Positions 27,422 through 42,781 of a stretch of DNA of 64,000 nt are shown in pieces (the stretch's first letter is position 1; each line of letters starts with the position of its first letter). A program made the translations under genes and the position numbers. Below the pieces are notes generated by a model. The model worked only from the letters and a program-made list of their open reading frames with translations, made no database searches and was not told the DNA's origin. The stretch is from assembly GCF_017876775.1 (NCBI RefSeq), contig NZ_JAGIOP010000001.1, positions 930,001 through 994,000 on the forward strand. The letters run 5' to 3'. This DNA comes from Mycolicibacterium lutetiense. GTDB lineage: Bacteria > Actinomycetota > Actinomycetes > Mycobacteriales > Mycobacteriaceae.

Positions 27422-27436
27422 GAGAATCCTATTCTT
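27422..27436. promoter_or_regulatory. Palindromic box 1 upstream of the P450 operon
   Basis: GAGAAT-CCT-ATTCTT, matching the GAGAAT-N3-ATTCTC pattern in 11 of 12 arm positions. It lies 118 bp before the P450 start. The same pattern occurs at 27511, 42644 and 42767. Confidence 0.5.
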
Positions 27437-27510
27437 TCTGCTTATCGCTGATAGGTGGGGGTCCGACGTTGACGCACACCCGGTGCTGTGGAAACCTACT
27501 ATCCATTGGT

Positions 27511-27525
27511 GAGAGTCACATTCTC
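27511..27525. promoter_or_regulatory. Palindromic box 2 upstream of the P450 operon
   Basis: GAGAGT-CAC-ATTCTC, one mismatch in the arms. It starts 8 bp after TACTAT (27497-27502), so it would cover the transcription start, a repressing position. The P450 start codon is 29 bp further on. Confidence 0.5.
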
Positions 27526-27553
27526 ATACGTGTGGCAGGAACGGGAGCAGCAG

Positions 27554-28834
27554 ATGGCGATCGACCCAACCGGTATCGATTTTTTCCGCGATGAACGATT
27601 GGTCGACGACCCGTACCCGTTCTTCGAGGCGTTGCGGGACAAGTGCCCCGTCACCCGTGAAGACCAGTACAACGTCACCATGGTGACGGGCTGGGACGAA
27701 GCGGTGCAGGTCTACAACGACGAGGAGACCTTCTCGTCGTGCCTCTCGGTCACCGGACCGTTCCCGGGCTTCCCGGTCCCGCTGGAGGGGCGCAGCGCCG
27801 AAGAGGTCACCGCGCTCATCGACAAGCACCGCAACGAACTGCCGTTCAGCGATCAGCTGCCCACGCTGGATCCGCCCACCCACACCGATCATCGCTCGTT
27901 GTTGATGCGGCTGATCACGCCCAAGCGCCTCAAGGAGAACGAGGACGCCATGTGGCAGTTGGCCGATGACGTGCTCGACGACTACCTGGGCTCGGGTGGG
28001 GGCGAGTTCATCAAGGGTTTCGCCGGCCCGTTCACCCTGCTGGTGATCGCCGATCTGCTCGGCATTCCCGACGAGGACCGCGAAGGTTTCGTCAACGGCA
28101 TCAAGCAACATTCCGGCGGTGGCATCGGCAGCACCAGCAAGGAATCGCTGTCACACAGCCCGCTGGAGTTCCTCTACGGCCAGTTCTCCGACTACGTTTC
28201 GGATCGCCGGGCCAATCCACGTGGCGACGTCCTCACCGGCTTGGCCGAGGCCACCTTCCCGGACGGCAGCATCCCCGACGTCGGTGATGTCGCGCGGGTG
28301 GCGACCAACGTCTTTTCGGCCGGCCAGGAGACCACGGTCCGACTGCTCAGCACCGCCCTGAAAGTCCTTGGCGAGCAACCGGAGATCCAGCAGCGGCTCC
28401 GCGCCGACCGCAGCCTGATCCCGAACTTCATCGAGGAGGCGCTGCGGATCGAAAGCCCGGTCAAGGGTGACTTCCGGCTGTCGCGCTGCCCGGTGACCAT
28501 CGGCGAGACCGAGTTGAGTGCGGGTACCACCTTGATGGTGCTCAACGGTGCGGCCAACCGCGATCCCCGGCGCTTCGAGGATCCCGACACGTTCGACCTG
28601 GCCCGCAAGAACGCCCGCCAGCACCTGGCTTTCGGCCGCGGCATCCACAGCTGCCCCGGCGCCCCGTTGGCGCGGGCCGAAACCCGGGTCGGTATCGAGC
28701 GGTTACTCGACCGGACCACCGACATTCGCATCTCCGAGGCCAAGCATGGCTCGGACGGCAACCGGCGCTACAACTACATCCCGACCTTCATCCTGCGCGG
28801 GCTGACCGAACTGCATCTGGAGTTCGACAGCTGA
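27554..28834 (+). CDS. Cytochrome P450
   Basis: This 426-residue P450 has haem loop FGRGIHSCPG (Cys367), I-helix SAGQETTVRL and ExxR in EEALRIES. It has the N-terminal FFRDERLVDDPYPFFEALRD and the segment LITPKRLKENEDAMW, shared with the P450 at 56006, so the two are paralogues of a different subfamily from the PLYYN group. ATG 27554 has GGGAG 6 nt upstream. Its stop overlaps the ferredoxin start by 1 nt, so the two are co-expressed as an electron-transfer pair. Two palindromic boxes precede it. Confidence 0.95.
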   Translation: MAIDPTGIDFFRDERLVDDPYPFFEALRDKCPVTREDQYNVTMVTGWDEAVQVYNDEETFSSCLSVTGPFPGFPVPLEGRSAEEVTALIDKHRNELPFSDQLPTLDPPTHTDHRSLLMRLITPKRLKENEDAMWQLADDVLDDYLGSGGGEFIKGFAGPFTLLVIADLLGIPDEDREGFVNGIKQHSGGGIGSTSKESLSHSPLEFLYGQFSDYVSDRRANPRGDVLTGLAEATFPDGSIPDVGDVARVATNVFSAGQETTVRLLSTALKVLGEQPEIQQRLRADRSLIPNFIEEALRIESPVKGDFRLSRCPVTIGETELSAGTTLMVLNGAANRDPRRFEDPDTFDLARKNARQHLAFGRGIHSCPGAPLARAETRVGIERLLDRTTDIRISEAKHGSDGNRRYNYIPTFILRGLTELHLEFDS

Positions 28835-29028
28835 TGCGCGTGCGGGTTGATGAAGACCGTTGCGCGGGCCACGGCATGTGCCTGACCCTGTGCCCCGAGG
28901 TCTTCGAGATGTCGGACGATGGTTGGGCGGTCGCCGATCCAGAAGAGGTTCCGGCCGCCTTCGAAGATGCGGCACGTGAAGCGATACAGAACTGCCCGGA
29001 ACGGGCGATCAGCGAAATCAACGAGTGA
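28834..29028 (+). CDS. Ferredoxin, P450-linked, with an extra cysteine
   Basis: This 64-residue ferredoxin has the pattern C-x5-C-x3-C near the N-terminus (RCAGHGMCLTLCPEVF) and a Cys-Pro near the C-terminus (NCPERAI). Most mycobacterial P450 ferredoxins of this size hold a [3Fe-4S] cluster with three Cys; here there is a fourth Cys at the x3 position, so a [4Fe-4S] cluster is possible. It donates electrons to the P450 encoded immediately upstream (start overlaps the P450 stop). Confidence 0.92.
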   Translation: MRVRVDEDRCAGHGMCLTLCPEVFEMSDDGWAVADPEEVPAAFEDAAREAIQNCPERAISEINE

Positions 29029-29043
29029 CGAAGGGGTTTGGAT

Positions 29044-29346
29044 ATGGCCGCTGGAACTTCTAAGGGATACGTGATCATCACCGAGGACATCAAGGACCCG
29101 GCCGGGATGGGCGAGTACGCCAAGCTGGCGTCGAAGGCGATGGGCGGCGCGACCGTCGTGGCCGTGGATCAGAAGCCCGAGGTGATCGAGGGAGCCTGGC
29201 ACGGCACACAAACCGTGGTGCTGGAGTTCGAATCCGTAGACGCCGCTCGTGAGTGGTACTACTCCGATGCCTACCAGGCGGCCGCCAAGGTGCGCCAGGG
29301 TGCCGCCGAGTGCAACGGCGTCATCCTTTCCGGCTTCCCCGCCTGA
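29044..29346 (+). CDS. DUF1330-type small protein
   Basis: This 100-residue protein has the ferredoxin-like fold pattern of the DUF1330 family: KGYVIITEDIKDPAGMGEYA at the N-terminus, then VVLEFESVDAAREWYYSDAY and a C-terminal ILSGF. Its biochemical function is unknown. ATG 29044 has AAGGGG 7 nt upstream. It lies 15 nt after the ferredoxin and 4 nt before the LLM oxidoreductase gene, so it belongs to the same operon and may act on a small metabolite of that pathway. Confidence 0.82.
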   Translation: MAAGTSKGYVIITEDIKDPAGMGEYAKLASKAMGGATVVAVDQKPEVIEGAWHGTQTVVLEFESVDAAREWYYSDAYQAAAKVRQGAAECNGVILSGFPA

Positions 29347-29350
29347 TCCC

Positions 29351-30268
29351 ATGCGCTTCAGCATCACTCACCCGATGCACAGCCATCCGTACCACCCGGA
29401 TCTGGTGAGTGGCAGCGGGGTTGCCGCGGTAGCGGCTGCGGCGGAGGCGGCGGGGTTCGACGGCTTCGGGTTCACCGACCATCCCGCTCCGTCGCAGCGC
29501 TGGCTGGACGCCGGTGGTCACGACGCGGTCGACCCGTTCGTGGCGATGACCTTCGCCGCGGCACACACCACCACGCTGCGACTGGTGCCCAACATCGTGG
29601 TGCTGCCATACCGCAACCCCTTCGTGGTGGCCAAATCCGGCGCCACTCTGGACCTGCTGTCCGGTGGCCGGTTCACACTGGCCGTCGGGGTGGGTTACCT
29701 CAAGCGCGAATTCGCCGCACTCGGGGTTTCCTACGACGACCGTGCTGCACTGTTCGACGAGGCACTTGAGGTGATCCGGGGCATCTGGACCACCGACGAT
29801 TTCACGTTTGAAGGCAAGAACTTCAGCGCCCGCGGTATCACCGCGCACCCCCGACCGGTGGCGGGTCCGCATCCGCCAATCTGGATCGGTGGCAACACCT
29901 CAGCGGCGCGGGCCCGGGTGGCCAAACACGGCGACGGGTGGTGCCCGTTCGCCGCACCGCCGGGCCTGGCCAAGACCGCGGGCACCGCAGCGATGGACTC
30001 ACTCGACGCGTTGGCCGCCGGCATCGAGGATCTGCGGGCCCGGTTGGCCGCTGCTGGTCGCGATCCCGACGGAATCGACATCGTGTTCAACAACTTTGAG
30101 GGTGGCAACCCCGGCGCCGACGACTTCAATGCCGACGCCTACCTGGCCGGCGTGGACAAGCTCGCCGCGCTGGGGGTCACCTGGCTGCACGTGACCCTGC
30201 CCGGCGACAGTTTGGCCCATGCGCTGGAGGCGACCGAGAGCTTCGGTAAGACAGTAATTTCGCGTTGA
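29351..30268 (+). CDS. LLM-class F420/FMN-dependent oxidoreductase
   Basis: This 305-residue protein has a luciferase-like TIM barrel. Near the N-terminus it reads AAEAAGFDGFGFTDHP, then LRLVPNIVVLPYRNP, KSGATLDLLSGGRFTLAVGVG and, at the cofactor phosphate site, PPIWIGGNTSAARAR. In mycobacteria most members use coenzyme F420. It is the last gene of the P450 operon and is followed by a compound hairpin at 30267-30321. Substrate unknown. Confidence 0.9.
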   Translation: MRFSITHPMHSHPYHPDLVSGSGVAAVAAAAEAAGFDGFGFTDHPAPSQRWLDAGGHDAVDPFVAMTFAAAHTTTLRLVPNIVVLPYRNPFVVAKSGATLDLLSGGRFTLAVGVGYLKREFAALGVSYDDRAALFDEALEVIRGIWTTDDFTFEGKNFSARGITAHPRPVAGPHPPIWIGGNTSAARARVAKHGDGWCPFAAPPGLAKTAGTAAMDSLDALAAGIEDLRARLAAAGRDPDGIDIVFNNFEGGNPGADDFNADAYLAGVDKLAALGVTWLHVTLPGDSLAHALEATESFGKTVISR

Positions 30269-30321
30269 CTCTGCGGTGAGGGCGCAAAAGTACGAGTAGG
30301 CAGCGCCGTGGCCGCAGAGTC
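30267..30321. terminator. Compound hairpin between convergent operons
   Basis: GACTCTGCGG (30267-30276) pairs perfectly with CCGCAGAGTC (30312-30321). Inside it GGCGC (30281-30285) pairs with GCGCC (30303-30307). It starts on the LLM gene stop codon and lies 10 bp from the end of the convergent hydrolase gene. Confidence 0.6.
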
Positions 30322-30330
30322 GATGGGGAA

Positions 30331-31098
30331 TCAGGCCGGCGTCACGGCGGCTATCGGCGTGGTCGTCGTGGCGTGCACCAGCAGTTCGGCCAGCTCGCGG
30401 GGGCAGCTCAGGAACGGCGAGTGCGACGCGTCGATGGTCAGTTGCTCGACACCGAGACGTTGCGTCACGGTGTCGGCCAGCCACTGCGGCATCGAGCGGT
30501 CCTGCAGGCAGCGGATGAAGCTGCGGGGCAGATCGGCCGCCCAGAACTGCGGCACCGACACCGGCGTGACGGTGGTGTCGCCGAACCGCTCCGGGCCCAG
30601 GCGATCGAAAGCCCAACGGGCCGTTGCCTCGTCGCAATCGTGGTAGAAGTAGCGCCACGCACCGTCGAAGTCGGCGAAGTGCATTGCGCCCTCCGCGTCG
30701 AAATGCAGGTAGCCCAGCATCTCGCCGACATCTCCGTCGAATTCGCCGCCCAACTCATCTTCGGCCGTACGCATGGCCATCGCCTCGGGATAGGTCCGGC
30801 CCTCCCTGGGTAGTGCGGCCGCCAGATACACGATGTGGCCCACCAGCTCTGGGGCGGCATCGGCAGCAAGGGTGGCGTCGAACCCGCCGCCGGAATGTCC
30901 CACCAGCACATCCCCGGGTTGCATGACCTCGAGGATCGCGGCGCGGCGGTTGGCCAGGGTTGATTCCTCGGCTGCCCGAGCGCCGTGCCCGGGCAGGTCC
31001 ACCGCGACACCGCCGTGACCGAGGTTCTGCAACTCGGCGATGGTGCGGTCCCAGCACCAGGCCGCGTGAAATCCGCCGTGTACGAAGACGAACCGCAC
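30331..31098 (-). CDS. Alpha/beta-hydrolase
   Basis: This 255-residue protein begins RFVFVHGGFHAAWCWDR, which includes the oxyanion HGG motif. The nucleophile elbow is GHSGGG near residue 83, the lid is aromatic-rich, and the catalytic His is in DASHSPF. It resembles the plant-type methylesterase and salicylate-binding hydrolase group. GTG 31098 follows the ferredoxin TAG directly with 2 nt between; the frame is open further but overlaps that gene. As the third gene after the P450 and ferredoxin it may hydrolyse an ester or lactone formed by the P450. Confidence 0.87.
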   Translation of the reverse strand: MRFVFVHGGFHAAWCWDRTIAELQNLGHGGVAVDLPGHGARAAEESTLANRRAAILEVMQPGDVLVGHSGGGFDATLAADAAPELVGHIVYLAAALPREGRTYPEAMAMRTAEDELGGEFDGDVGEMLGYLHFDAEGAMHFADFDGAWRYFYHDCDEATARWAFDRLGPERFGDTTVTPVSVPQFWAADLPRSFIRCLQDRSMPQWLADTVTQRLGVEQLTIDASHSPFLSCPRELAELLVHATTTTPIAAVTPA

Positions 31099-31100
31099 GC

Positions 31101-31301
31101 CTACTCGTCCTTGATCGAGATGGCCTGCCGGGGGCACTGCCGCACTGCTTCGCGGACCAGCGCCTCGTTTTCCGGCGTGACATCTTCCTGCAGGATGTGG
31201 AGGTAGTCCTGATCGTCGAGGTCGAACACCTCGGGGATGATCCCCATGCAGACTGCGTTGCTCTCGCAGATCTCGAAGTCGACGTGAACTTTCTTGGTCA
31301 T
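31101..31301 (-). CDS. [3Fe-4S]-type ferredoxin
   Basis: This 66-residue ferredoxin has Cys12 and Cys18 (ICESNAVCMG) and a third Cys in RQCPRQAI, with Ile-Ile where some relatives have a further Cys. Three ligands fit a [3Fe-4S] cluster. Its ATG overlaps the P450 stop by 1 nt (TGATG), so it is translationally coupled to the P450 and is its likely redox partner. Confidence 0.92.
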   Translation of the reverse strand: MTKKVHVDFEICESNAVCMGIIPEVFDLDDQDYLHILQEDVTPENEALVREAVRQCPRQAISIKDE

Positions 31302-32503
31302 CACCTCAGCACCCGCACCGGCACGTTGGAGTAGCCGGCCACATTCTGCATCTGAACACGTTGCAGCTGGTCCCATTTCACCTCGTAGCGCGGCATGTAA
31401 TCGAGCAGCTTCTCCAGGGCGATCACGCTTTCCATCCGGGCCAACGCCGCCCCCAGACAGCTGTGGATGCCGTAACCCAGCCCGAGGTTCTGCGCCTCGG
31501 TGCGGTCGCGGTCGATATCGAAGGTATCGGCGTCGGTGAACGCATCGGGGTCGCGGTTGGCCGCGGCACTGATCAGGAAGACCGCCTTGCCCGCCGGAAT
31601 GGTGCCGCTGGGCACGTGGGCGTCCTTGAGGGTGTAGCGGACGTTGTACTGCACCGGGCCCTCGTAGCGCAGCAGTTCCTCGACCGCGGCCGGCACCTTG
31701 TCGCGGTCGTCGAGCAGCTTCTGCCACTGCTCAGGGTTGCGCGCGAACAGCACCATCGCGGTGCCGACGAGTTTGGTGACGGTCTCGGCACCGGCCCCGC
31801 CGAGCAGGGTGGCGAAGCCGGTGATCTCGATATCGTCGAGGCGACGCATCTGGCCGTCCTCGCCGGGGATCTCCGCGGCGATCAGTCGGCTGATCATGTC
31901 GTCCTGCGGGTCTTCCCGGCGCTTCTGCACCAGCCCGTAGTAGTAGATGCCGGTGTCGATGTTGGCCTGCATTCCGGCTTCGGAGTAACCGATCTGCCCG
32001 GGTTCACGCGACAGGCTGATATCGATCCAGTGCCGCACCTGCTGGCGGTAATCCGGGTCCACACCTGCCATCCGGGTGATTACCTCGACCGGGAACGGGC
32101 CCGAGAAATCCTGGACGACATCGAACTCGTCGGAGTCGATCAATCCCAGGTGATGGTCGATCTGCTCGACGATGGTGTCGCGCTGCGACTGGATCATGCG
32201 CGGCGTGAACGCCTTGTTGAGCAGACTGCGCATGTGGCGGTGATCGGGCGGATCCATGAAGATGATCGACTTCTGCGGCGGCTCGGCGCTCTGCACCATG
32301 GCCAGATCGCAGCCACGCGACGAGGAGAACGCCTCATGATCCTTCAACGCCGCCGACACGTCCTCATGCCGGGTCAGGGCATAGAAGTCAGAGTCTTCGT
32401 TGTAGTAGAGCGGCGCGTCCTGGCGCATGCGCCGGTACATGTCGAACGGGTTGTTGAAGAACTCCTCGGAGAACGGATCGAAAATCACCTGGGCCTTGGT
32501 CAT
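31301..32503 (-). CDS. Cytochrome P450
   Basis: This 400-residue P450 has haem loop LGYGIHSCLG (Cys349), I-helix GAGAETVTKL and ExxR in EELLRYEG. The first residue of the haem loop is Leu where Phe is usual. It has APLYYNEDSDFYALTR near the N-terminus, like the paralogues at 5824, 17960 and 59180. ATG 32503 has AAGGAGGAG upstream. It heads the operon with the ferredoxin and the hydrolase. Confidence 0.94.
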   Translation of the reverse strand: MTKAQVIFDPFSEEFFNNPFDMYRRMRQDAPLYYNEDSDFYALTRHEDVSAALKDHEAFSSSRGCDLAMVQSAEPPQKSIIFMDPPDHRHMRSLLNKAFTPRMIQSQRDTIVEQIDHHLGLIDSDEFDVVQDFSGPFPVEVITRMAGVDPDYRQQVRHWIDISLSREPGQIGYSEAGMQANIDTGIYYYGLVQKRREDPQDDMISRLIAAEIPGEDGQMRRLDDIEITGFATLLGGAGAETVTKLVGTAMVLFARNPEQWQKLLDDRDKVPAAVEELLRYEGPVQYNVRYTLKDAHVPSGTIPAGKAVFLISAAANRDPDAFTDADTFDIDRDRTEAQNLGLGYGIHSCLGAALARMESVIALEKLLDYMPRYEVKWDQLQRVQMQNVAGYSNVPVRVLR

Positions 32504-32550
32504 TGGCTGGCTCCTCCTTCGCGGCGGGCTGGGCCGGAAGTGTTGTGACA

Positions 32551-32586
32551 CGTTACGGGAAACTGTTGAACTGTAACGCTAACAGT
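32551..32586 (-). promoter_or_regulatory. Nested inverted repeats upstream of the 31301 P450 operon
   Basis: CGTTAC (32551-32556) pairs with GTAACG (32573-32578), and ACTGTT (32562-32567) pairs with AACAGT (32581-32586). The two repeats interleave 48-83 bp upstream of the P450 start, a place suited to a TetR-type operator. No regulator gene is adjacent. Confidence 0.45.
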
Positions 32587-32652
32587 AATCCGTTTGAGAG
32601 TGTTTGAAAAGGATGAAATGCCATGCTGATCAGGACGTGGCCCTGCGTCAGA

Positions 32653-33441
32653 TCACGTGACTGCGGCGTCGATCAGGCCCTCGAGTCGGCCCAAGTTGCT
32701 GTCCAGTTCAGAAGCGGTGGTGCGGACCACGGCCACGTCCTTGCCGATGAATTCGCCGACCCGGGCGATGAACGCGTCCGCCGAGCCGGTGGCAGCGATG
32801 GCGCCGAGCGCTCGGCTGGCCCCACTGCCGTGAGTCAGCGCGGTCAGCAGTGTCGCCTCGTCGATACCCAGTCGATCGCCGAGCTTTACGCCCTCGGCCA
32901 CCGCGCCGATCTGTGCGGCGAACAATGCGTTGTTCACCAGCTTCACCCGCTGCCCGGCTCCGACCGGACCGACGTGCAGCACCGGATCGGCATAGGACTT
33001 CAAGACTGCGCGGGCGCGGGCCACCGCGGACTCAGCACCCCCGGCGAACACCGTGATGGATCCGGCCGCGATATCGTGCGGTCCGCCGCTGACCGGGGCA
33101 TCGATGACCGCGATGCCGCGAGCGGCCCCACGCTCGGCGAGAGCCTCGACGGTGCGGGGGCTGCCGGTGGTGTGCAGCACCAGCACCGCACCTTCCGGCA
33201 TCTCGTCGATCAGGTCCGGGCAGAGGTCCCGGACCTGCTCATCGGTGAACACGCAGACGATCGCCACCTCGGCATCGCTGACGGCCTCGCGCGGCGAGGC
33301 CACTGGCTCCGCGCCGAGTTCGGCCACCGCGGCCCGCTTTTCGTCATCTCGGCCCAGGGCTCGCACCTGGTGTCCGGCGTCGGCCAGGCGGCGCACCATC
33401 GGCGCGCCCATCCGTCCGGCACCGATGAAACCGACGCGCAT
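32653..33441 (-). CDS. NAD-dependent beta-hydroxyacid dehydrogenase (HIBADH family), second copy
   Basis: This 262-residue protein begins MRVGFIGAGRMGAPMVRRLA with the GxGxMG dinucleotide motif, has the substrate-binding DAPVSGGPHDI segment and the catalytic Lys in KLVNNAL. Family members oxidise 3-hydroxyisobutyrate, tartronate semialdehyde or similar acids. It overlaps the upstream HIBADH gene by 1 nt. The two proteins are clearly divergent, so they probably form a heteromer or act on different substrates. It is the last gene of the aldolase operon. Confidence 0.9.
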   Translation of the reverse strand: MRVGFIGAGRMGAPMVRRLADAGHQVRALGRDDEKRAAVAELGAEPVASPREAVSDAEVAIVCVFTDEQVRDLCPDLIDEMPEGAVLVLHTTGSPRTVEALAERGAARGIAVIDAPVSGGPHDIAAGSITVFAGGAESAVARARAVLKSYADPVLHVGPVGAGQRVKLVNNALFAAQIGAVAEGVKLGDRLGIDEATLLTALTHGSGASRALGAIAATGSADAFIARVGEFIGKDVAVVRTTASELDSNLGRLEGLIDAAVT

Positions 33442-35152: not shown

Positions 35153-35155
35153 GGC

Positions 35156-36814
35156 CTAGTCGTCCCTGCGCATCAGCAGGACACCACTGGGGGTCAGGCC
35201 ACCGCTGCTGGCCACCGCGACACGGGCGTTCGCGACCTGGCGCTCACCGGCCTCACCGCGCAGCTGGGTGACGGCCTCGTGGATCAGACCCATTCCGTGG
35301 GTGCGCCCGTGGGAGAGCTGGCCGCCGTGGGTGTTGAGCGGGATGATGCCGTCGCGGGAGATGTTGTGGCCGCCATCGAGGAAGTCCTTGGATTCTCCGA
35401 TGCCGCAGAAGCCGAGCCCCTCCAGCCAGGACAGACAGTTGAAGCTGAACCCGTCGTACAGCTCGGCGACGTCGACATCGCCGGGACGCAACGAGGTTCG
35501 CGACCACATGTGCGCGCTCTGGCCCAGGACCTGTGGTTCGTGGGTGAGGGTGGTCTGGTCCCAGTCGAGCCGTTCGACGATCTGAGTACCGACCGCCTCG
35601 AACAGGATCGGCGGCTTGGGCAGATCGCGTGCGGCGTCCACAGCGGAGACGATGACGGCCACCGCCCCGTCGCACGGCACGTCGCAGTCGTAGAGGCCGA
35701 ACGGTGTGGTGATCATGCGGGCCGACAGGTAGTCGTCCATGGTCATCGGATCGCGGTAGATGGCCGTCGGGTTCAGTGCGGCGTTGGCACGCTGGTTGAG
35801 CGCGATCCAGCCGAGCGTTTCCCGTGTGGTGCCGTATCGGTCGAAGTGGCGACCGGCGTTCTGCGCCAACGTGTGCGCGGCCGAGGTGGACCCGAACGGG
35901 TATTGCCAGCTGTCGCTGCGGCCACCCATCGGAGGGGACATCTTGCCCTCCTTGACCAGCTGGCCGAACGTCGCCTCCCACAGCGTGCGGAAGCACAACA
36001 CGTGGCGCGCCATACCGGTGGCCACGGCCATCATGGCCGCGATGACCGATCCGCCCGGACCGAAGGTGTCCATGCCGCCATTGATCCAGGTCGGACGGAG
36101 CCCGAGGGCGCCCTCCAGTGCGGTCACGCCGCCTTCCCCCATGCCGGCGATGGCCAGACCCGGGTAGGTGGACAGGCCGTCGATATCGTCGAACGTCAAA
36201 CCGGCATCGGCGACGGCTTTTTCGGCGGCGTCGATGGTCAGTGCCAGCGGCGGCACCATCTGTCGACGACCGATCTTGGACATCCCGATCCCGGTGATGG
36301 CCGAATGGTCCTCGAATTTCTTCTTGGTCAGCATCGGTCGGACGTACTTGGCGACATCCTGGGGCGCCACGGGTTCGGCGACCATCGGAGGGGCCGGCGT
36401 GGAGTCAGCCGCCCGCTTGAACACCGGCAGCCAGACGTCTTCGATGTGCTGGAAGTCGACCTCCACGGGCATGCCCAGTTTGAGGTCGTCGAAATCGCAG
36501 TCGACGATGTTGGTCGTCAACCGGACCCGCGGATCCTCGGCGATGGCCACCTCCGCCACCACATAGGGCGGCGGCAGGTCGGGGAAGCCGAACCGGTGGT
36601 TGATCGTGAACCCGGCCAGCGATGCGCGCCCCGACACATCGCGCACACCCATGTTGTGGCTGCGGCAGTAGCGGCAGATCGGCTGCGGCGGATGGATGAG
36701 GGCGCTGCAGTCCTGGCACTCCTGGATTCGCAGCACGCCGTCGGCGCCCGCGGTCCAGAAGTACTCGTTGAGCGTGGTAACCGTGGGGAGCGGACGCCCC
36801 GGTATCTGTGACAA
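35156..36814 (-). CDS. DUF35 (OB + zinc ribbon) fused to a thiolase-fold protein, probable aldolase
   Basis: This 552-residue protein has two parts. Residues 1-135 are a DUF35 unit with a zinc ribbon (CQDC, then CRYC 11 residues on) and an OB domain. Residues about 170-552 are an SCP-x/Ltp2-type thiolase-fold domain (TGIGMSKIGRR; GMGLIHEAVTQLRGE). The nucleophilic Cys of true thiolases is absent from NGGMDTFGPGGSV. In actinobacterial steroid side-chain breakdown, Ltp2 (thiolase fold without that Cys) and the DUF35 domain of ChsH2 form a retro-aldolase. Here both are in one chain. The TTG start is uncertain. Confidence 0.83.
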   Translation of the reverse strand: MSQIPGRPLPTVTTLNEYFWTAGADGVLRIQECQDCSALIHPPQPICRYCRSHNMGVRDVSGRASLAGFTINHRFGFPDLPPPYVVAEVAIAEDPRVRLTTNIVDCDFDDLKLGMPVEVDFQHIEDVWLPVFKRAADSTPAPPMVAEPVAPQDVAKYVRPMLTKKKFEDHSAITGIGMSKIGRRQMVPPLALTIDAAEKAVADAGLTFDDIDGLSTYPGLAIAGMGEGGVTALEGALGLRPTWINGGMDTFGPGGSVIAAMMAVATGMARHVLCFRTLWEATFGQLVKEGKMSPPMGGRSDSWQYPFGSTSAAHTLAQNAGRHFDRYGTTRETLGWIALNQRANAALNPTAIYRDPMTMDDYLSARMITTPFGLYDCDVPCDGAVAVIVSAVDAARDLPKPPILFEAVGTQIVERLDWDQTTLTHEPQVLGQSAHMWSRTSLRPGDVDVAELYDGFSFNCLSWLEGLGFCGIGESKDFLDGGHNISRDGIIPLNTHGGQLSHGRTHGMGLIHEAVTQLRGEAGERQVANARVAVASSGGLTPSGVLLMRRDD

Positions 36815-36897
36815 CTCGACTCCGGTGGTAAGCGGGTTATTCCATGTGGAGAATCACGTTACCAGTTTCCGGGATAGGTGATCCAGGACTCTGGGGG
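36815..36897 (-). promoter_or_regulatory. Upstream region of the aldolase operon with a degenerate box
   Basis: GAGAAT-CAC-GTTACC (36849-36863) has a perfect left arm and a weak right arm of the palindrome seen at 27511 and 42767. GGTAA and TTACC also flank this region. The 83-bp gap is the only place for a promoter of the operon that reads towards 32653. Confidence 0.3.
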
Positions 36898-37119
36898 TCA
36901 GCCTGCCGCGCGTTCGGCCCGCGTCTCCTTCAACTCGATGATCGCGTGCACCGGGCAGTCCAGCAGCGCACGCCGGACAGCGTCCTCGTCGGCCTCGGGG
37001 ATGTCGCCGTCACCCTGAAGCGAGGCGTACCCCCAGTCGTCCAGCGGGAAGTACTCCGGCGCGTGTTTGGCGCACAACCCGAAGCCATCACACAACGTGC
37101 GATCAAGCTTGACCTTCAT
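36898..37119 (-). CDS. [3Fe-4S]-type ferredoxin
   Basis: This 73-residue ferredoxin begins MKVKLDRTLCDGFGLCAKHA (Cys10, Cys16) with the last Cys in LLDCPVHAI. Three Cys fit [3Fe-4S]. It is encoded directly after the NuoF-like gene with a 4-nt overlap (ATGA), so the two proteins are probably partners: the flavoprotein would pass NADH electrons to this ferredoxin, which could serve the window's P450s. No P450 is in this operon. Confidence 0.92.
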   Translation of the reverse strand: MKVKLDRTLCDGFGLCAKHAPEYFPLDDWGYASLQGDGDIPEADEDAVRRALLDCPVHAIIELKETRAERAAG

Positions 37120-38405
37120 ACCGAGACCACCGCCTCCAGAGACTCCACTTCGTACGGCCGCGCGGCGGTGAATGCACCGGAACGGCAGGCCTGACAGCCC
37201 TTTTCGAGGTGACGATGAACCTGATCGGGGAACTGGGCCAGCAGGCTGGCCGCCACATTGGCTGCGCCGTCGAGCGTCGCGCAGGCACCGCGGCCGCGTA
37301 GCACCACCGACCACCGGGTGAGCCGGTCGAGATCCTCCTGGGTGGCCACGCCGTCACGCAGGCCGGTGGCCACCGCCGCCATCGCGGCCGTCCCGTTGAA
37401 GCACGACCCACATTGGCCGGCGTTCTCGCGGTCGAAGTAGGCCAGCACCGACGCGGCGACCGCCACCGGGCAGTCATCGGTGAGGATGCCGATCGCGCCG
37501 CAACCCAGCCCGCTGCCGAGTCCTCGTACGGACTCGTGATCCAGCGTGGCGCCGACGATGTCGTGGTTGACCAGCCCGGCGAAGTACCCGCCCATCAGCG
37601 CCCCGCGAACGCGGTCGGCGGACACCCCGTGCAGCGTCAGGAGATCGGCGAACGCGATGCCGTGCGGAAGCTCGTACAGCGCCGGGGCGCGTCCGGCTCC
37701 GGTGATCGTGGCCAGGAAGGTGCCGGGGGAGGCCTCGGTGCCCAGTTGCCGGAACGTCTGCGCGCCGTGTTGGTGGAGGTAGGCCAGGTGCGCCAGCGTC
37801 TCGACATTGCTGATCAGTGTCGGCCTGCCGGCCACCCCTTCCTCGAACGGGCGCGGTGGCTTGTCGGTGGGTTTGGCTGGGCCGCCGTTGACGACGTGCA
37901 CGGCCGCGGTCTCTTCGCCGGCGACGTAACCCGGAGCGACGGTGAGTAATTCGACTGCCACCCGGTCCAGGTCGCCGGGGAGTTCGTCGAGCGCGCGAGC
38001 CACACTCGCGGCGGCCGTCGAATCCGACACGTACACCACGGCGCGGTCCGCGCCGACGATCCCGGAGGCCAGTCGCAGGCCGTCGAGTACCGCGTGTGGA
38101 CGGTTGCGCAGCAACCAGCGGTCCTTGATCGAGGCCGGCTCGCCTTCTTCGCCGTTGGCGATCACCACGGTGCCCGAGGCGCCCCGCCCGTTGTCGCGCA
38201 CCGCGCGCAGTTTCACCGCCAGCGGGAAGGCCGCGCCGCCCCGCCCGAGCAGTCCGCTGGCCTGGACCTCGGAAAGCAGATACTCCGAATCGGCAAGTGC
38301 GCCATAGCCCCCGGCCTGCTGATACTCAGCCAGGCTCTCCGGTCCGTCGCGGAGGAGGCGCGGGGTGATTCCCGGCCATACCGCGACTGTGAGTTCGGCC
38401 GTCAT
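37116..38405 (-). CDS. NuoF-like NADH-binding flavoprotein, stand-alone
   Basis: This 429-residue protein matches the 51-kDa subunit of complex I. It has GRGGAAFPLAVKLRA (FMN), NGEEGEPASIKDRWLL (NADH), AGYVAGEETA and the SNVETLAHL segment. The N3 cluster motif reads CGSCFNG; in NuoF it is CGxCxxC, so the third Cys is missing. Further Cys occur in GRGACATLDG and GCQACRSGAF. No other Nuo genes are nearby. ATG 38405 is preceded by GGGAAG; GTG 38411 is an alternative. It probably serves as an NADH:ferredoxin reductase for the overlapping ferredoxin. Confidence 0.85.
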   Translation of the reverse strand: MTAELTVAVWPGITPRLLRDGPESLAEYQQAGGYGALADSEYLLSEVQASGLLGRGGAAFPLAVKLRAVRDNGRGASGTVVIANGEEGEPASIKDRWLLRNRPHAVLDGLRLASGIVGADRAVVYVSDSTAAASVARALDELPGDLDRVAVELLTVAPGYVAGEETAAVHVVNGGPAKPTDKPPRPFEEGVAGRPTLISNVETLAHLAYLHQHGAQTFRQLGTEASPGTFLATITGAGRAPALYELPHGIAFADLLTLHGVSADRVRGALMGGYFAGLVNHDIVGATLDHESVRGLGSGLGCGAIGILTDDCPVAVAASVLAYFDRENAGQCGSCFNGTAAMAAVATGLRDGVATQEDLDRLTRWSVVLRGRGACATLDGAANVAASLLAQFPDQVHRHLEKGCQACRSGAFTAARPYEVESLEAVVSV

Positions 38406-38438
38406 GGTCACTTCCCGTCCCCGGCTAGGCTTACCGGC

Positions 38439-38912
38439 ATGAGAACTGCGGTGGTGCGCGTCGGAGTCGACCCGGCTGGTGAGCTCGGTGCGGAGCAGCT
38501 ATCCGACGGCATGGCAACGCTCCGTGAGTTGCTGGGTGAACGTGGCGCCGAGGTGTTGGACAATCAGCTCGCCGAACTGCCCGCGCACCGCCGCGAGGTC
38601 GAGGTGCTGATCGCCGGCGACAACGCACCAGAGCTGCAGGCCATCGCGATCGAACTGTGCGCCAAGGCGTTTGGCACCACCCCCGCGGCGGGGGTGGTCA
38701 CCTTCGTCAGCCGCGGCACCGATGAGGACGTTCGCGGTGTGCTGGCCGGGTTCGGCCTGTCCGGCGACATCAGCCGATCCGTCGACGTCGAAGGTTGGGA
38801 CATTGTGACGGTGACCCTGGACAAGGCCGATCTGACCCGCATCCCGGAAAGCCGCATCCACACCGCCCTGGAGGCTTCGCTGAACTGCGAGGTACAGATC
38901 CGGGCGGTTTGA
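38439..38912 (+). CDS. Conserved hypothetical protein, 157 aa
   Basis: I do not recognise this protein. It begins MRTAVVRVGVDPAGELGAEQ, is soluble and mostly alpha/beta, and has three candidate strand segments (VEVLIAGDN, GVVTFVSRG, DIVTVTLDK). No signal peptide, Cys cluster or membrane helix is visible. It is divergent from the NuoF-like gene across only 33 bp, so both share a control region. It is convergent with the hydrolase at 38924. Confidence 0.75.
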   Translation: MRTAVVRVGVDPAGELGAEQLSDGMATLRELLGERGAEVLDNQLAELPAHRREVEVLIAGDNAPELQAIAIELCAKAFGTTPAAGVVTFVSRGTDEDVRGVLAGFGLSGDISRSVDVEGWDIVTVTLDKADLTRIPESRIHTALEASLNCEVQIRAV

Positions 38913-38923
38913 GCCCGTCGTGC

Positions 38924-39862
38924 TCACGCCGACCTCAGGAAGTCGATGATCGCCGGGGCGGCCTGGACCCAGGTGTCGAACAGGCAGAACGTCTTTCCGC
39001 CGCTCTGTGCGAACCTCTCGCCGGCGCGTTCCCAGGCATCCTCGGGCCAGGGCGGATCGATCAGCTTGGAACCCTTGATCAGACAACTCACTTCAAGCGA
39101 GGTGCGCTTGGGGTGATCCCAGTCGTTCTCGCCACCACGGATGATCAGGGTGGGAACGGTGATGTTGTCGAACATCTCGTCGGGCACGCCGGGGATGGTC
39201 TGGCCGGGTTTCGACACGAACGCGTTGAGCCACCGCAGCATGACTTTGAGGAACTCGTCGGTATCGAGGTCGAGCAGGCGCTGCCGGTTCGCCGGGTTCT
39301 CCGCGATCCGTTCGCGCCATTCGGACACGCTGAGCAACCCCTCGACGCCGAGTCCGCGTACCGCCAGGATGCTTGGCGTGACGTAGTGGCCGCCGAGCAC
39401 GAAAGACCCGTACACGCCTCCGACGATGTTCCACACCACCAGCTTTCGCACGATCTCGGGATAGAGCATGGTGGTCAGCATCGAGTCCCGGGCGCCGCCG
39501 GAGCCGCCGAGGATGAAGCACGGTCCGATCTCGAGGGCGGTGATCAGTTTGTAGAGCGTCTCGGCTCGCATGTGCGACTCGCTCTGACCGTAGAACTGCA
39601 CATCGGAGCGACCGCAGTTGGGCCGGTCCCACAGCAGCACCCGGTAGCCGCCCTCGACCAGTGCTTCGGCCAATGGTCGTAGCCCTGGAATGTCCTTACT
39701 GAACCGGCCACCGGGGGTAAGGGCGATGAAATCGCCTTTATCGCCGAGGAGTTCGTAGACGACGTTGCCGCCGTTGATCTCGATGATCTTCTCGCCCGGC
39801 TTGAGTTCTGGGGCGCCCAAGACAACCGTCATGGCCGATGATTCGCTCGCAAGCTCGCTCAT
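38924..39862 (-). CDS. Alpha/beta-hydrolase (meta-cleavage-hydrolase-like)
   Basis: This 312-residue protein has FIALTPGGRFSKDI near the oxyanion site, LLWDRPNCGRSD, the nucleophile elbow GGSGGARDS near residue 120 and the Asp segment TLIIRGGENDWDHP. The elbow has Gly before Ser where His or Asn is usual. It starts with an overlap of 4 nt (ATGA) with the Rieske gene. As the last gene of an operon with two amidohydrolases and a Rieske ferredoxin, a C-C or ester bond hydrolase role in ring breakdown is likely. Confidence 0.85.
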   Translation of the reverse strand: MSELASESSAMTVVLGAPELKPGEKIIEINGGNVVYELLGDKGDFIALTPGGRFSKDIPGLRPLAEALVEGGYRVLLWDRPNCGRSDVQFYGQSESHMRAETLYKLITALEIGPCFILGGSGGARDSMLTTMLYPEIVRKLVVWNIVGGVYGSFVLGGHYVTPSILAVRGLGVEGLLSVSEWRERIAENPANRQRLLDLDTDEFLKVMLRWLNAFVSKPGQTIPGVPDEMFDNITVPTLIIRGGENDWDHPKRTSLEVSCLIKGSKLIDPPWPEDAWERAGERFAQSGGKTFCLFDTWVQAAPAIIDFLRSA

Positions 39863-40251
39863 GCCATCACCAACACATCTTCTCCAACCACACGGACCGG
39901 GTAGGTACGGATACTCCATTCCGGCTTCACCGCGGTGGTGCCGGTCGCCAGCTCGAAACCCCATTGGTGCCAAGGGCAGTAGATGAACTCTTTGTCACGC
40001 ACCATCACCGCGTCGCCCGGCACTTTCTCGTCGACCACCGTGCGGCCCCGGGCCCGGCCCGAGCACAGCGGACCGCCCTCGTGCGGGCAGTAGTTGGCGA
40101 TGGCGTAAAAGGTGCCGTTGACGTTGTACACGCCGACGCCGTGACGGCCGATCGGTACGAGTTTGTGTGTGCCGGGCGGGATTTCATCGACATTGGCGAC
40201 GACATGCTCGCGTCCCTGCGCGAGTCGGGGGCGCTTCTCGGGCTCGCTCAT
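39859..40251 (-). CDS. Rieske-type [2Fe-2S] ferredoxin
   Basis: This 130-residue protein has the Rieske ligands C-x-H in YCPHEGGPLC and C-x2-H in YCPWHQWGF, 40 residues apart, within a soluble beta fold. There is no membrane anchor. Such proteins feed electrons to ring-hydroxylating oxygenases, but no oxygenase alpha subunit is in this window. Its ATG overlaps the upstream amidohydrolase stop by 1 nt. It could instead serve a P450 or act as a regulator subunit. Confidence 0.92.
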   Translation of the reverse strand: MSEPEKRPRLAQGREHVVANVDEIPPGTHKLVPIGRHGVGVYNVNGTFYAIANYCPHEGGPLCSGRARGRTVVDEKVPGDAVMVRDKEFIYCPWHQWGFELATGTTAVKPEWSIRTYPVRVVGEDVLVMA

Positions 40252-41393
40252 CAGAACACCCGGGCCTGTCCCTCGAGTGCCGGAACGGTCTCGGGGAGCT
40301 TGTAGGTCTGGATGCCGTTGCGGAACATGATTGCCTCACGCGCGTGCTCGGGCAGGTGTTTGACCAGCCAGCGCGGGTCGTCGAAGGTCCAGTGCGGATA
40401 GTCGCTGGAATACAGCAGGATCTTGTCGCACTCCATCCACTCGAAGGCCCGAGACAGTTCGGTCTTGTCCTCGGGATAGTCCAGCGGCTGGGTGGTGAAC
40501 TTGATGTGGTCCTTGACGTACTCACTCGGCTTGCGCTTGATGTCCATCCAGCTCTTGCGCTTCTCGTAGATGGCGTCCATCCGCCACATCAGCGGCAGGA
40601 TCCAGGTGAAAGCATGTTCGACGAACACGATGCGCAGCGTCGGGAACCGGTCGAATACCCCGTCGAAGATCAGGCTCATCACCTGGTTGGCCGCCAGCAA
40701 CGAGTAGCTGACCATGAAGTCGTGGTTGTAGCTGGGCAGCCCGACCGGGGGAGTGGGCAGCGTCTCGTACTCGCCACGGGACAGGTGGCAGCTCACCGTG
40801 ATGTCATGCTTGGTCGCCGCGGCCCAGATCGGATCGTACTTGGGGTCACCCCATGACGGCCGAGGCTCGGCCTTCATCAGAACCTGTGCCATGTAAGGGT
40901 GTTCGGCCCACTGCTCGATTTCGGCGACCGCGGTCTGCGGCTCTTCGATGGCTACACAGATGGATCCCCGCCACCGTTCATGCCAGTTGTTGTGATTGTC
41001 CAACCAGTTGTCTGCCAGCCAATGGTTGACCGCGGTGCAGTAGGCGGCAGTGGCTTCGCCGAGGCGGCTCTCGGTGTGGGTCGGTTCCAGGATGGCGATA
41101 TCGGAGCCGGCCTCCATGACGAGCTGACGCAGTGCCATGTCGGGGTCGCTGCAGGCGAATTCGCCATCCGGCGGGAACGCGTCCACGCGCATGGCGTAGG
41201 CATGTGCGTAATCCGGTGCGTCGTAGTAGATCTGCTCGCCGACCTTGTGGCTCAGAAAGTACTTGCTGCGCCACGGTTCAGGGATGTACTCGATCAGTTC
41301 GCCGCGCCGCGGCATGGGGTGGACGTCGGAGTCGACGCACCGAACCGCGATCCGCTCGGCCGCAGGCACCCGTGGGTTGGTCGTGATGGTCAT
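40251..41393 (-). CDS. Amidohydrolase-2 family protein
   Basis: This 380-residue TIM-barrel protein has CVDSDVHPMPRRGEL near the N-terminus (HxP variant), VSCHLSRGE in the middle and LLYSSDYPHWTFDDP at the C-terminal metal site. It is in the same superfamily as ACMSD decarboxylases. ATG 41393 has GGAGG about 9 nt upstream. It follows the other amidohydrolase gene by 19 nt on the same strand. The two are only distantly similar, so they likely form a hetero-oligomer or do successive steps. Confidence 0.87.
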   Translation of the reverse strand: MTITTNPRVPAAERIAVRCVDSDVHPMPRRGELIEYIPEPWRSKYFLSHKVGEQIYYDAPDYAHAYAMRVDAFPPDGEFACSDPDMALRQLVMEAGSDIAILEPTHTESRLGEATAAYCTAVNHWLADNWLDNHNNWHERWRGSICVAIEEPQTAVAEIEQWAEHPYMAQVLMKAEPRPSWGDPKYDPIWAAATKHDITVSCHLSRGEYETLPTPPVGLPSYNHDFMVSYSLLAANQVMSLIFDGVFDRFPTLRIVFVEHAFTWILPLMWRMDAIYEKRKSWMDIKRKPSEYVKDHIKFTTQPLDYPEDKTELSRAFEWMECDKILLYSSDYPHWTFDDPRWLVKHLPEHAREAIMFRNGIQTYKLPETVPALEGQARVF

Positions 41394-41412
41394 GACGGTC
41401 TCCCTCCGATAC

Positions 41413-42537
41413 CTACTGTGCCGCAACCGCGGACGATGGGACCAGACCTGCGAGATCCTGCTCCAGCCCGTAAAGCCCTGCGGCATTGCGCCACAACAGT
41501 TTGTCCCGCTGTTCGGTGCTGAACGCGCTGGGGACCTCCGGCTCGTTCAGCTGCCAATGCGGGTAGCTGGAGCCGAACATCACCATGTCCTCCTTGCCGG
41601 TGAAGCCGAACCATTCGCCGGCGAACTCGGTGTCTCCGGGCCCGTCGAGCGCACCTTGGACGAAGTACACGTGACCGGGCAGATAGTCGCTGGGCATCTT
41701 GGGCGCCCACGGCGTCTGCTCCAGGTGTGGGCGGCCGAAGCAATCCATCCGCCACATGAACGGCGTCAACATGTCCGCGGCACCGTCGCCCCAGACGAAC
41801 TTCAGTGTCGGTGTCCGTTCGAAGACGCCCTCGGCGATCATGTTCATCAGGTGATAGATGTAGTTGAGCGCCATGAAGCCCAGGTATTGCTCATAGGTCC
41901 GGGTCTTGCCCGACGGGGTAGGCGCGAACTGGATGCCTGCCCCGCCCTCGATGTGCACGGCCACCGGCAGCCCCGCTTCCGCGGCGGCGTCCCACAGCGG
42001 CCAGAACTGCGGCTTGCCGTACAGCTCGCGTGACTGCATCGGGATGCCGATCTGCACCACGCGCGGATGGTCCTTGTACTTGTCGATCTCACGCAGGGCG
42101 CCGACGATATCGTCCGGGTTGACCCGGATGGTGCCGCGGAACCGCTCGCCGTATTCGGCGTGTTCGAGCCAGCGAGTCACCATCATGGCGTTGTGCGCGG
42201 CGGCCAGTGCCGTGCCGAGGTGACGGTCGGGCATGATGCCGCGGGTCATGGGATGCAGGATCGCGATGTCGACGCCGCGGTCGGTGAACAGGTGCTGGGC
42301 GGCGATGTCGGGATCGGAGCCGGGGTACTGACGGTCCGGTCCCTTGGTGTCCCTGGCATATTCGCCGCCTGGCGCGCCGTACCAGTTCATCTCGTAGTCG
42401 GGGAAGCCGCGGCTGGCGAACGGTTCCTTCAGGAAGTTCTGCCGCAGGTCCTTGTTCGATCCGAAGAAGACGTGCACGCTCGCGTCAATCACGGGCGTTC
42501 CCGCACTGCCGGGTTGCGCGGGGTCATTGATGGCCAA
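41413..42537 (-). CDS. Amidohydrolase-2 family protein
   Basis: This 374-residue protein (387 if ATG 42576 is used) has VIDASVHVFFGS at the start, HIEGGAG in the barrel and VMFGSSYPHWQLNEP at the C-terminal metal site. The HxH pattern near the N-terminus is degenerate (SVHV) and the final Asp of the SDYPH motif is Ser (SSYPH), so the metal site may be incomplete. TTG 42537 is preferred because CGGAGG lies 6-7 nt upstream. It heads the operon running to 38924. Confidence 0.83.
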   Translation of the reverse strand: MAINDPAQPGSAGTPVIDASVHVFFGSNKDLRQNFLKEPFASRGFPDYEMNWYGAPGGEYARDTKGPDRQYPGSDPDIAAQHLFTDRGVDIAILHPMTRGIMPDRHLGTALAAAHNAMMVTRWLEHAEYGERFRGTIRVNPDDIVGALREIDKYKDHPRVVQIGIPMQSRELYGKPQFWPLWDAAAEAGLPVAVHIEGGAGIQFAPTPSGKTRTYEQYLGFMALNYIYHLMNMIAEGVFERTPTLKFVWGDGAADMLTPFMWRMDCFGRPHLEQTPWAPKMPSDYLPGHVYFVQGALDGPGDTEFAGEWFGFTGKEDMVMFGSSYPHWQLNEPEVPSAFSTEQRDKLLWRNAAGLYGLEQDLAGLVPSSAVAAQ

Positions 42538-42617
42538 GACTGTCCTCCGATGTCCGTCCGGAAACGAGCTGTGCATACGCGGATGGCGGCGTGCCTGTTA
42601 CGCCGGACCTTACAGCC

Positions 42618-42645
42618 AGTCTAGATCCATATTCTTCTATGGCAA
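42618..42645 (-). promoter_or_regulatory. Candidate promoter of the amidohydrolase/Rieske operon
   Basis: On the minus strand TTGCCA (42645-42640) and TAGACT (42623-42618) are 16 bp apart. The palindrome at 42644-42658 touches the -35 element. Confidence 0.45.
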
Positions 42646-42658
42646 GAACATAATTCTC
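42644..42658. promoter_or_regulatory. Palindromic box 3 in the divergent region
   Basis: On the minus strand GAGAAT-TAT-GTTCTT, two mismatches to GAGAAT-N3-ATTCTC. It abuts the -35 of the amidohydrolase operon. Confidence 0.45.
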
Positions 42659-42766
42659 GGAACGTCTCGGCTCTTTGTCGCAGGTAAGCGCCGGTGCTGG
42701 TCACCCGCACAGCGCGCTACTTTGGAGAACCGGTACTTGCTAGGGGAGAAGGTCCCATCATAGAAA

Positions 42767-42781
42767 GAGAATGCTATTCTC
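42767..42781. promoter_or_regulatory. Palindromic box 4 in the divergent region
   Basis: GAGAAT-GCT-ATTCTC, a perfect 6-3-6 palindrome 35 bp before the acyl-CoA dehydrogenase start. A weak TTGCTA/TAGAAA pair lies just upstream, which would put the box at the transcription start. Confidence 0.55.

Follow-up and report, generated by a model that had tools for sequence, protein, structure and literature searches.

The window considered here (64,000 nucleotides; positions 930,001 to 994,000 of contig NZ_JAGIOP010000001.1, below C1, in the 6.35-Mb, three-contig genome of Mycolicibacterium lutetiense) carries several copies of a 15-bp palindrome, GAGAAT-N3-ATTCTC, in front of putative catabolic operons. 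The palindrome is real and occurs well beyond chance expectation. We propose, with a probability of roughly 0.88, that its copies serve as operators of one TetR-family repressor, P0002, whose gene lies outside the window. P0002 is a single-domain TetR protein of 239 amino acids, encoded on the minus strand at C1:917781-918500, 11.5 to 12.2 kb to the left of the window's first base. Judging from the sequence comparisons below, this protein is the likely binder of the palindromes, and not the tandem TetR encoded in the window at 45055-46407, which a first-pass annotation had put forward for that role. Positions up to 64,000 are those of the window; larger numbers are positions on C1.

Four of the five sites listed in the first-pass annotation hold (no strand is assigned to the sites). 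Two stand in tandem before the operon of a cytochrome P450 gene: GAGAATCCTATTCTT at 27422..27436, 132 bp before the start codon (taken as the ATG that follows the sites), and GAGAGTCACATTCTC at 27511..27525, 43 bp before it, each with one mismatch. The former has a matrix score of 22.5, which nothing equals in 3 Mb of simulated sequence. The second pair occupies the divergent region between an amidohydrolase operon and a pair of acyl-CoA dehydrogenase genes, and consists of AAGAACATAATTCTC at 42644..42658 (two mismatches; 68 bp before the amidohydrolase start) and the perfect copy GAGAATGCTATTCTC at 42767..42781. As had also been observed, the other upstream regions of the window are free of the pattern: the sole further match with up to two mismatches (position 1731) sits inside an open reading frame (ORF).

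The fifth site, a degenerate copy with three mismatches at 36849..36863 that had been read as an operator of an aldolase operon, is at chance level. We dropped it for this genome because chance alone would give about eight matches of equal quality in 224 kb, because it lacks the 22-bp partner box described below, and because a site with up to two mismatches is kept upstream of the best matches to its gene in just 3 of 15 other genomes (14 of the 15 are close matches; the remaining one, at 43 per cent identity, is probably not an orthologue). The gene in question (35156..36814, minus strand; PF01796, PF12172, PF22691), which encodes a ChsH2-type OB domain fused to a thiolase-like (Ltp2-type aldolase) protein, is therefore not supported as a member of the regulon.

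At up to three mismatches, the window contains 8 matches, compared with 11.7 expected, and is thus not enriched; the signal is therefore carried by close matches, and only these were judged. The 224 kb surrounding the window contain 6, 13, and 21 sites with at most zero, one, and two mismatches, respectively; for 59 scrambled 6-3-6 palindromes made of these letters, the mean counts are 0, 0.07, and 2.25 and the largest counts 0, 2, and 18. None of the 59 reaches the numbers of the real pattern, and two come close at two mismatches (18 and 17 sites vs 21). The core AGAA(C/T)-N3-(A/G)TTCT is found 12 times in this region and its versions with an N2 or N4 spacer not once. Across the whole genome, 7 sites are perfect and 17 have at most one mismatch, of which 6 and 13, respectively, fall within C1:878522-1016518, a 138-kb segment that makes up 2.2 per cent of the genome (binomial P = 7e-10 and 5e-19, with an even spread assumed). 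At up to two mismatches, 82 sites were found genome-wide vs 10 for the pattern read backward.

We also scanned the 224 kb with a scoring matrix built from 332 sites of other genomes, against a background of 3 Mb of simulated sequence. Fourteen strong sites were found, at scores that the simulated sequence reaches zero to one times, which corresponds to at most 0.075 equally good chance matches per 224 kb. The position of sites relative to genes was assessed for this region and for one further site, before korAB. Thirteen of the strong sites are located between genes or at most 60 bp from an ORF-call end, and the fourteenth (884254) was flagged as in-gene because the ORF call extends upstream; the thiolase domain of the encoded protein starts past the site. 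Within the 224 kb, the pattern is therefore not as frequent inside genes as upstream of them; equal frequency in a genome scan is what the first-pass annotation had named as grounds for abandoning its proposal. The three remaining sites with at most one mismatch elsewhere in the genome are each covered by at least one ORF.

The palindrome is widespread among relatives. In the same genus, a perfect site is present in 122 of 148 sampled genomes and at least three such sites in 117, mostly 4 to 10 per genome, compared with a single genome of the 148 for the backward-read control. Sampling of the wider family gave a perfect site in 57 of 201 genomes (the 201 include 15 of the same genus, 14 of them with a site), and at least three perfect sites are found in 24 genomes from eight other genera, giving nine genera in all. 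The flanks of the sites have diverged and the spacer letters are free across genera.

The distribution of P0002 follows that of the sites. We compared the presence of a P0002 orthologue (E-value below 1e-100) with the number of perfect sites in 20 of the 117 own-genus genomes with at least three sites, 5 with one or two, and 26 with none, and likewise, from the other genera, in all 24 genomes with at least three sites, 3 of the 19 with one or two, and 30 of the 143 with none. In the own genus, the orthologue was found in 20/20, 3/5, and 2/26 genomes of the three classes, respectively (a fourth genome of the middle class, G070, has it in two pieces at contig ends); in the eight other genera, the counts are 24/24, 2/3, and 1/30. 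Overall, all 44 tested genomes with at least three sites, from nine genera, carry P0002, vs 3 of the 56 without sites (Fisher P = 4e-11 in the own genus and 2e-14 in the other genera, uncorrected for relatedness).

The palindrome also stands at the P0002 gene itself, which in M. lutetiense lies, with a short-chain dehydrogenase gene and a crotonase gene as neighbors, in a divergent promoter region carrying site 918557. Among the named P0002 loci (the best 80 of 379 relatives found), all 80 have a perfect upstream site, at -71 in 68 loci and at -70 in 12. The 27 loci from other genera include 24 with a perfect upstream site, two with a one-mismatch site, and one with a two-mismatch site. For 25 loci taken from whole genomes of the own genus, the sites are perfect at -61 or -71 in 12 cases, have one mismatch in seven (one of these at -86), and two mismatches in three; the remaining three loci have no site with up to two mismatches. 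In G264 and G191, which belong to other genera, P0002 and the likely orthologues of the acyl-CoA dehydrogenase pair are transcribed away from each other, and a perfect site separates them.

The N-terminal helix-turn-helix (HTH) of P0002 (residues 56-101) matches PF00440 at 30.8 bits (cut-off 24); in family libraries, no NCBIfam model matched the protein, and in Pfam TetR_N alone was above its cut-off. Over 52 loci, the HTH segment has a mean identity of 0.96, compared with 0.71 on either side of it; such conservation would be expected of proteins that recognize a common operator. The structure predicted for P0002 by AlphaFold has a mean pLDDT of 69, with residues 81-90 of the HTH region below 50. 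Because the model is poor, a fold search with it says no more than that the fold is that of a TetR and that the nearest structures include FadR-type ones and KstR2.

Three genomes (G086, G101, and G016) each have two copies of P0002. One copy has the standard perfect site upstream, whereas the other is preceded at -74 by GAGAAG-N3-CTTCTC, in which both halves have changed symmetrically, and differs at two residues of the HTH region. The latter copy is possibly a duplicate with a shifted operator.

Many of the sites are accompanied by a weaker copy at a fixed distance. In the M. lutetiense cluster, 11 of 20 sites have a copy with at most five mismatches exactly 22 bp away, whereas at any other spacing from 8 to 59 bp such partners accompany 0 to 2 of the 20. 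The same spacing is seen at 18 of 38 perfect sites from 16 other genomes, where other spacings from 15 to 59 bp account for at most 5 of 38. In the window, the partner lies 22 bp before site 27511 (27489..27503; five mismatches) and exactly 22 bp from site 42644 (TAGATCCATATTCTT, 42622..42636; four mismatches), and sites 27422 and 42767 have none. Several other genomes have a 21-bp step in their P450 promoters. Boxes so spaced would fall on the same face of the helix, which suggests that two dimers sit side by side.

In six other genomes (G024, G053, G093, G004, G135, and G018), the P0002 promoter has two boxes 21 bp apart, GAGAAC-N3-ATTCTC (one mismatch) and GAGAGT-N3-ACTCTC (two mismatches). 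This is the clearest doubled operator encountered; its second box overlaps the assumed start of the gene, which is possibly misassigned.

We hypothesize that a dimer of ligand-free P0002 occupies the strong 15-bp box, that a further dimer often sits on the weaker box 22 bp (two helical turns) away, and that P0002 would thereby block promoters across a catabolic cluster of roughly 140 kb as well as that of korAB (2-oxoglutarate:ferredoxin oxidoreductase). The genes repressed in this way would be those for P450s, LLM enzymes, amidohydrolases, acyl-CoA dehydrogenases, crotonases, acyl-CoA ligases, the mhp genes, and probably an Mce importer; P0002 would also repress its own gene. Four of the boxes (27511, 42644, 42767, and 918557) lie 43 to 71 bp before the likely starts, a placement as for repression, and site 27422 lies farther upstream, at the 132 bp given above. 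Release of P0002 would be brought about by a pathway intermediate, most likely a coenzyme A (CoA) thioester of a hydrophobic, ring-bearing substrate. That ligand type is a guess, favored because the nearest solved relatives of P0002 include acyl-CoA-binding FadR-type TetRs.

Several observations weigh against P0002 as the common repressor. In six of the own-genus genomes with a one-mismatch site, the site nearest to the P0002 gene is at -19 to -22, as measured from a possibly misplaced start. Three genomes carry P0002 and no perfect site anywhere; remnants of a site are seen at the P0002 gene, with one, two, and three mismatches in G056, G241, and G089, respectively. In G063 and G026, the orthologue is accompanied by one perfect site at another place, and the stretch inspected around the P0002 gene has no site with up to two mismatches. 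Conversely, G044 and G194 have one site each and no P0002 orthologue, which chance could produce. A gene of the cluster can also track the sites without binding them, as exemplified by the gene of an IclR-family regulator, P0004, present in 19 of the 20 site-rich genomes of the genus. The co-occurrence comparison covered P0001 (the tandem TetR), P0002, and P0004; the cluster has further single TetRs, P0003 and P0005-P0009, of which P0007, P0008, and P0009 are encoded in the window. Finally, the sites nearest to the Mce genes, 994203 and 1019343, are weak, with 0.37 and 0.52 equally good matches expected by chance per 224 kb.

The best surviving alternative, which we nevertheless regard as improbable, is that another regulator binds the sites: KstR, KstR2, a TetR of the Rv0767c type, or another single TetR of the cluster. 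In its favor, the KstR half-site TAGAAC resembles GAGAAT/GAGAAC (PMC1995591), and a palindromic "motif X" of phytosterol-induced genes in another Mycobacterium strain has been assigned to an Rv0767c orthologue (PMC6593523). The KstR operator, TnnAACnnGTTnnA, spans 14 bp (PMC1995591), and its pattern is found just twice in the 224 kb, at 988020 and 1002496, and never at the palindromes; the KstR2 operator pattern, AnCAAGnnCTTGnT (PMC3068626), has no occurrence in the 224 kb. The remark in the first-pass annotation that the palindrome is unlike the KstR and KstR2 motifs is thus borne out. Moreover, KstR is reported to be highly conserved in mycobacteria (PMC1995591) and therefore would not account for the genomes that are free of sites, and Rv0767c target regions are described as rich in GAC and GTC (PMC10312376). 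As far as tested, none of these regulators has a site in the promoter of its own gene that is conserved like that of P0002.

It is still less probable that the tandem TetR P0001 binds the palindromes and represses the window operons. P0001 (45055..46407, minus strand), with its two TetR_N domains, is located in the cluster and adjoins the acyl-CoA dehydrogenase pair, and its orthologues (E-value below 1e-130; at most 33 candidates scored per genome) are enriched with the sites, occurring in 0/26 own-genus genomes with no site, 1/5 with one or two, and 13/20 of the site-rich ones (Fisher P = 8e-7 for zero-site vs site-rich). However, the gene is missing from seven of these 20 site-rich genomes, which have four to nine sites each (e.g. 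nine in G034 and eight each in G016 and G028), so that the sites exist without it. Its own promoter has no site with up to three mismatches. In addition, Mce3R, a double TetR of known structure, recognizes asymmetric sites of 25 bp (PMC11667970), a type of operator from which the present one departs, as seven sites are perfect palindromes; P0001 itself aligns with the Mce3R structure chain over one part only.

Binding by the IclR-family regulator P0004 (C1:888590-889315) is equally hard to credit. Its gene stands beside the mhp genes, with the perfect site 889410 in the divergent promoter between it and the mhp operon, and the own-genus count given above (19 of 20) was obtained at an E-value below 1e-100. 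The own-genus site-rich genome in which it was not found, G138, has four sites and is 93 per cent complete. At the same threshold, P0004 was detected in 0 of the 24 site-rich genomes of other genera, where the best match has an E-value of 2e-65 and 48 per cent identity, and we reject it as the binder on that count. The probability that the sites are a repeated non-regulatory element or a product of chance is negligible: the lack of enrichment at three mismatches and the 17 or 18 sites that scrambled palindromes can give at two mismatches would agree with it, whereas perfect sites hold promoter positions over nine genera amid diverged flanks and free spacers, and none of the 59 scrambled palindromes has a perfect match in the 224 kb.

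The proposed P0002 regulon would be KstR-like yet separate, with an autoregulated repressor that probably loads two dimers. KstR, too, is described as a single TetR autoregulator that recognizes a short palindrome located at its own promoter and at many others and controls a large lipid-catabolic regulon conserved among actinomycetes (PMC1995591). In contrast to the 14-bp KstR operator, the present one is 15 bp long and has one base more between its halves, and KstR structures match P0002 weakly (E-value of about 0.01). KstR2 is likewise a TetR, and its palindrome is found in divergent promoters close to the gene that encodes it, but three motifs per genome are reported for it (PMC3068626), compared with the 14 strong sites found here; HIP-CoA, a pathway intermediate, has been reported as its effector (cited in PMC6593523). 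Mce3R resembles the proposed system in its TetR control of lipid genes and an Mce operon and in having more than one site per operator region (PMC11667970; PDB 9b7y), and differs from P0002, a single TetR with a symmetric site, in its asymmetric sites and its two TetR units per chain.

Motif X is a palindrome located before P450, dehydrogenase, and TetR operons, with a copy at the gene of its own regulator and targets outside the KstR and KstR2 regulons (PMC6593523), and in these respects is similar to the present palindrome. The two may be the same motif; the comparison made here covers the gene neighbors, which differ in that the regulator gene of motif X, judged by locus tags, is near a steroid delta-isomerase and several P450s, whereas P0002 is near the short-chain dehydrogenase and crotonase, and the trinucleotide preference, which differs in that Rv0767c targets are rich in GAC and GTC (PMC10312376). 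FadR-type acyl-CoA-binding TetRs (PDB 5gpa, 3ang, and 3whc) are among the nearest solved sequences and folds to P0002; with about 15 to 23 per cent identity and a low-confidence model, the ligand type is still a guess. A 2015 survey gives predicted motifs for 30 mycobacterial TetRs, named by Mycobacterium tuberculosis genes (PMC4482099). A literature search on the motif strings returned no paper containing them and, among the matches listed, no such operator by title; the visible matching letters in the top match (PMC8228715) are primers. Searches on the gene cluster and on a matching regulon found no account of either, and no description of P0002 was present in the titles and abstract starts of the literature searched, which leaves most subscription journals outside.

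With respect to target genes, the first-pass annotation suggested one regulon joining four transcription units of the window. The reading as one regulon is supported, and the regulon would extend past what that annotation could see, with 14 strong sites in 224 kb and the korAB site beyond. Three of the units are supported as well, namely those of the P450, the amidohydrolases, and the acyl-CoA dehydrogenase pair, whereas the aldolase operon is not. The P450 gene (27554..28834, plus strand; PF00067, matched on the longer ORF 27488-28834) is the first of its putative target operon and is followed by the gene of an LLM-class oxidoreductase (29249..30268, plus strand; PF00296, with TIGR03619 above its cut-off). 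Upstream of the best P450 matches in 15 other genomes, a site with up to three mismatches is found at -36 to -54 in 12, and in 10 with up to two mismatches; the loci without one are L226, L234, and L235. An IS110-type transposase gene, identified by eye at 25927-27153, lies directly upstream of the operators of this operon. The leftward target operon begins with an amidohydrolase-2 gene (41413..42576, minus strand; PF04909), followed by a second one (40251..41486, minus strand; PF04909). On the other side, the putative targets are an acyl-CoA dehydrogenase-like gene (42816..43820, plus strand; PF00441 on a longer ORF), whose ORF call begins at an ATG within the operator and which more likely starts at the in-frame GTG at 42816, and the second gene of the pair (43821..45008, plus strand; PF02770 and PF00441). 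Likely orthologues of genes from this divergent region have an adjoining perfect site at three loci of other genomes (L139, L192, and L194, the last two being those of G264 and G191).

Outside the window, the putative targets comprise ferredoxin and acyl-CoA ligase genes (site 878522); a thiolase gene (884254); genes for an alpha/beta hydrolase, MhpA, MhpB, and a flavoprotein related to ketosteroid dehydrogenases (889410); a hydrolase operon (904674); the short-chain dehydrogenase gene (917364 and 917764); the P0002 gene itself and the divergent crotonase gene (918557); carboxymuconolactone-decarboxylase-like and Rieske genes and an amidohydrolase gene (926945); a gene for a small secreted-looking protein (1009568); and amidohydrolase and ligase genes (1016504). 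At about 140 kb from the cluster, korAB has a perfect site at C1:1159995-1160009, approximately 240 bp ahead of the genes, and a perfect site before korA is also found in another genome (L142). The ligase of 1016504 and korAB were named by eye. In 34 of 38 site loci of other genomes (19/20 and 15/18 in two sets), the 3 kb retrieved includes a gene homologous to korA or to one of the cluster; for one locus of the first set (L154), the identity is only 35 per cent. The Mce operon at 997-1007 kb, of which one ORF was searched and matches TIGR00996, is a probable member of the regulon.

The presence together of an Mce importer, P450s, flavoproteins related to ketosteroid dehydrogenases, ChsH2/Ltp2-type and beta-oxidation genes, and mhp ring-cleavage genes suggests that the gene set breaks down a hydrophobic ring compound. 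We would give roughly even odds to the broader proposal that mycobacteria and their relatives have here a further large catabolic regulon beside those of KstR and KstR2, in which P0002, acting through a 15-bp operator doubled at a 22-bp pitch, would control Mce-mediated uptake and the complete breakdown of a hydrophobic ring compound, with korAB burning the product. A cluster of roughly 140 kb, which would otherwise look like dozens of unconnected P450, amidohydrolase, and LLM genes, thereby gains a candidate regulator, a candidate operator, and a list of putative targets. The inducer of P0002, once found, would indicate the substrate of the whole cluster and possibly the cargo of its Mce importer; to our knowledge, the cargo is unknown for most Mce operons. 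The doubled operator also offers a direct test case for the paired loading of TetR repressors.

Two further features of the cluster were observed. Behind the Mce operon are genes for four small secreted-looking proteins (C1:1007381-1009481), two of which were searched against Pfam and had no match; the sites ahead of them are 1009568, which is strong, and 1007943, which is weak. Behind the crotonase gene divergent from P0002 is a gene for a nucleotide cyclase with a HAMP domain (C1:919506-920987), which may join the regulon because it follows that crotonase.

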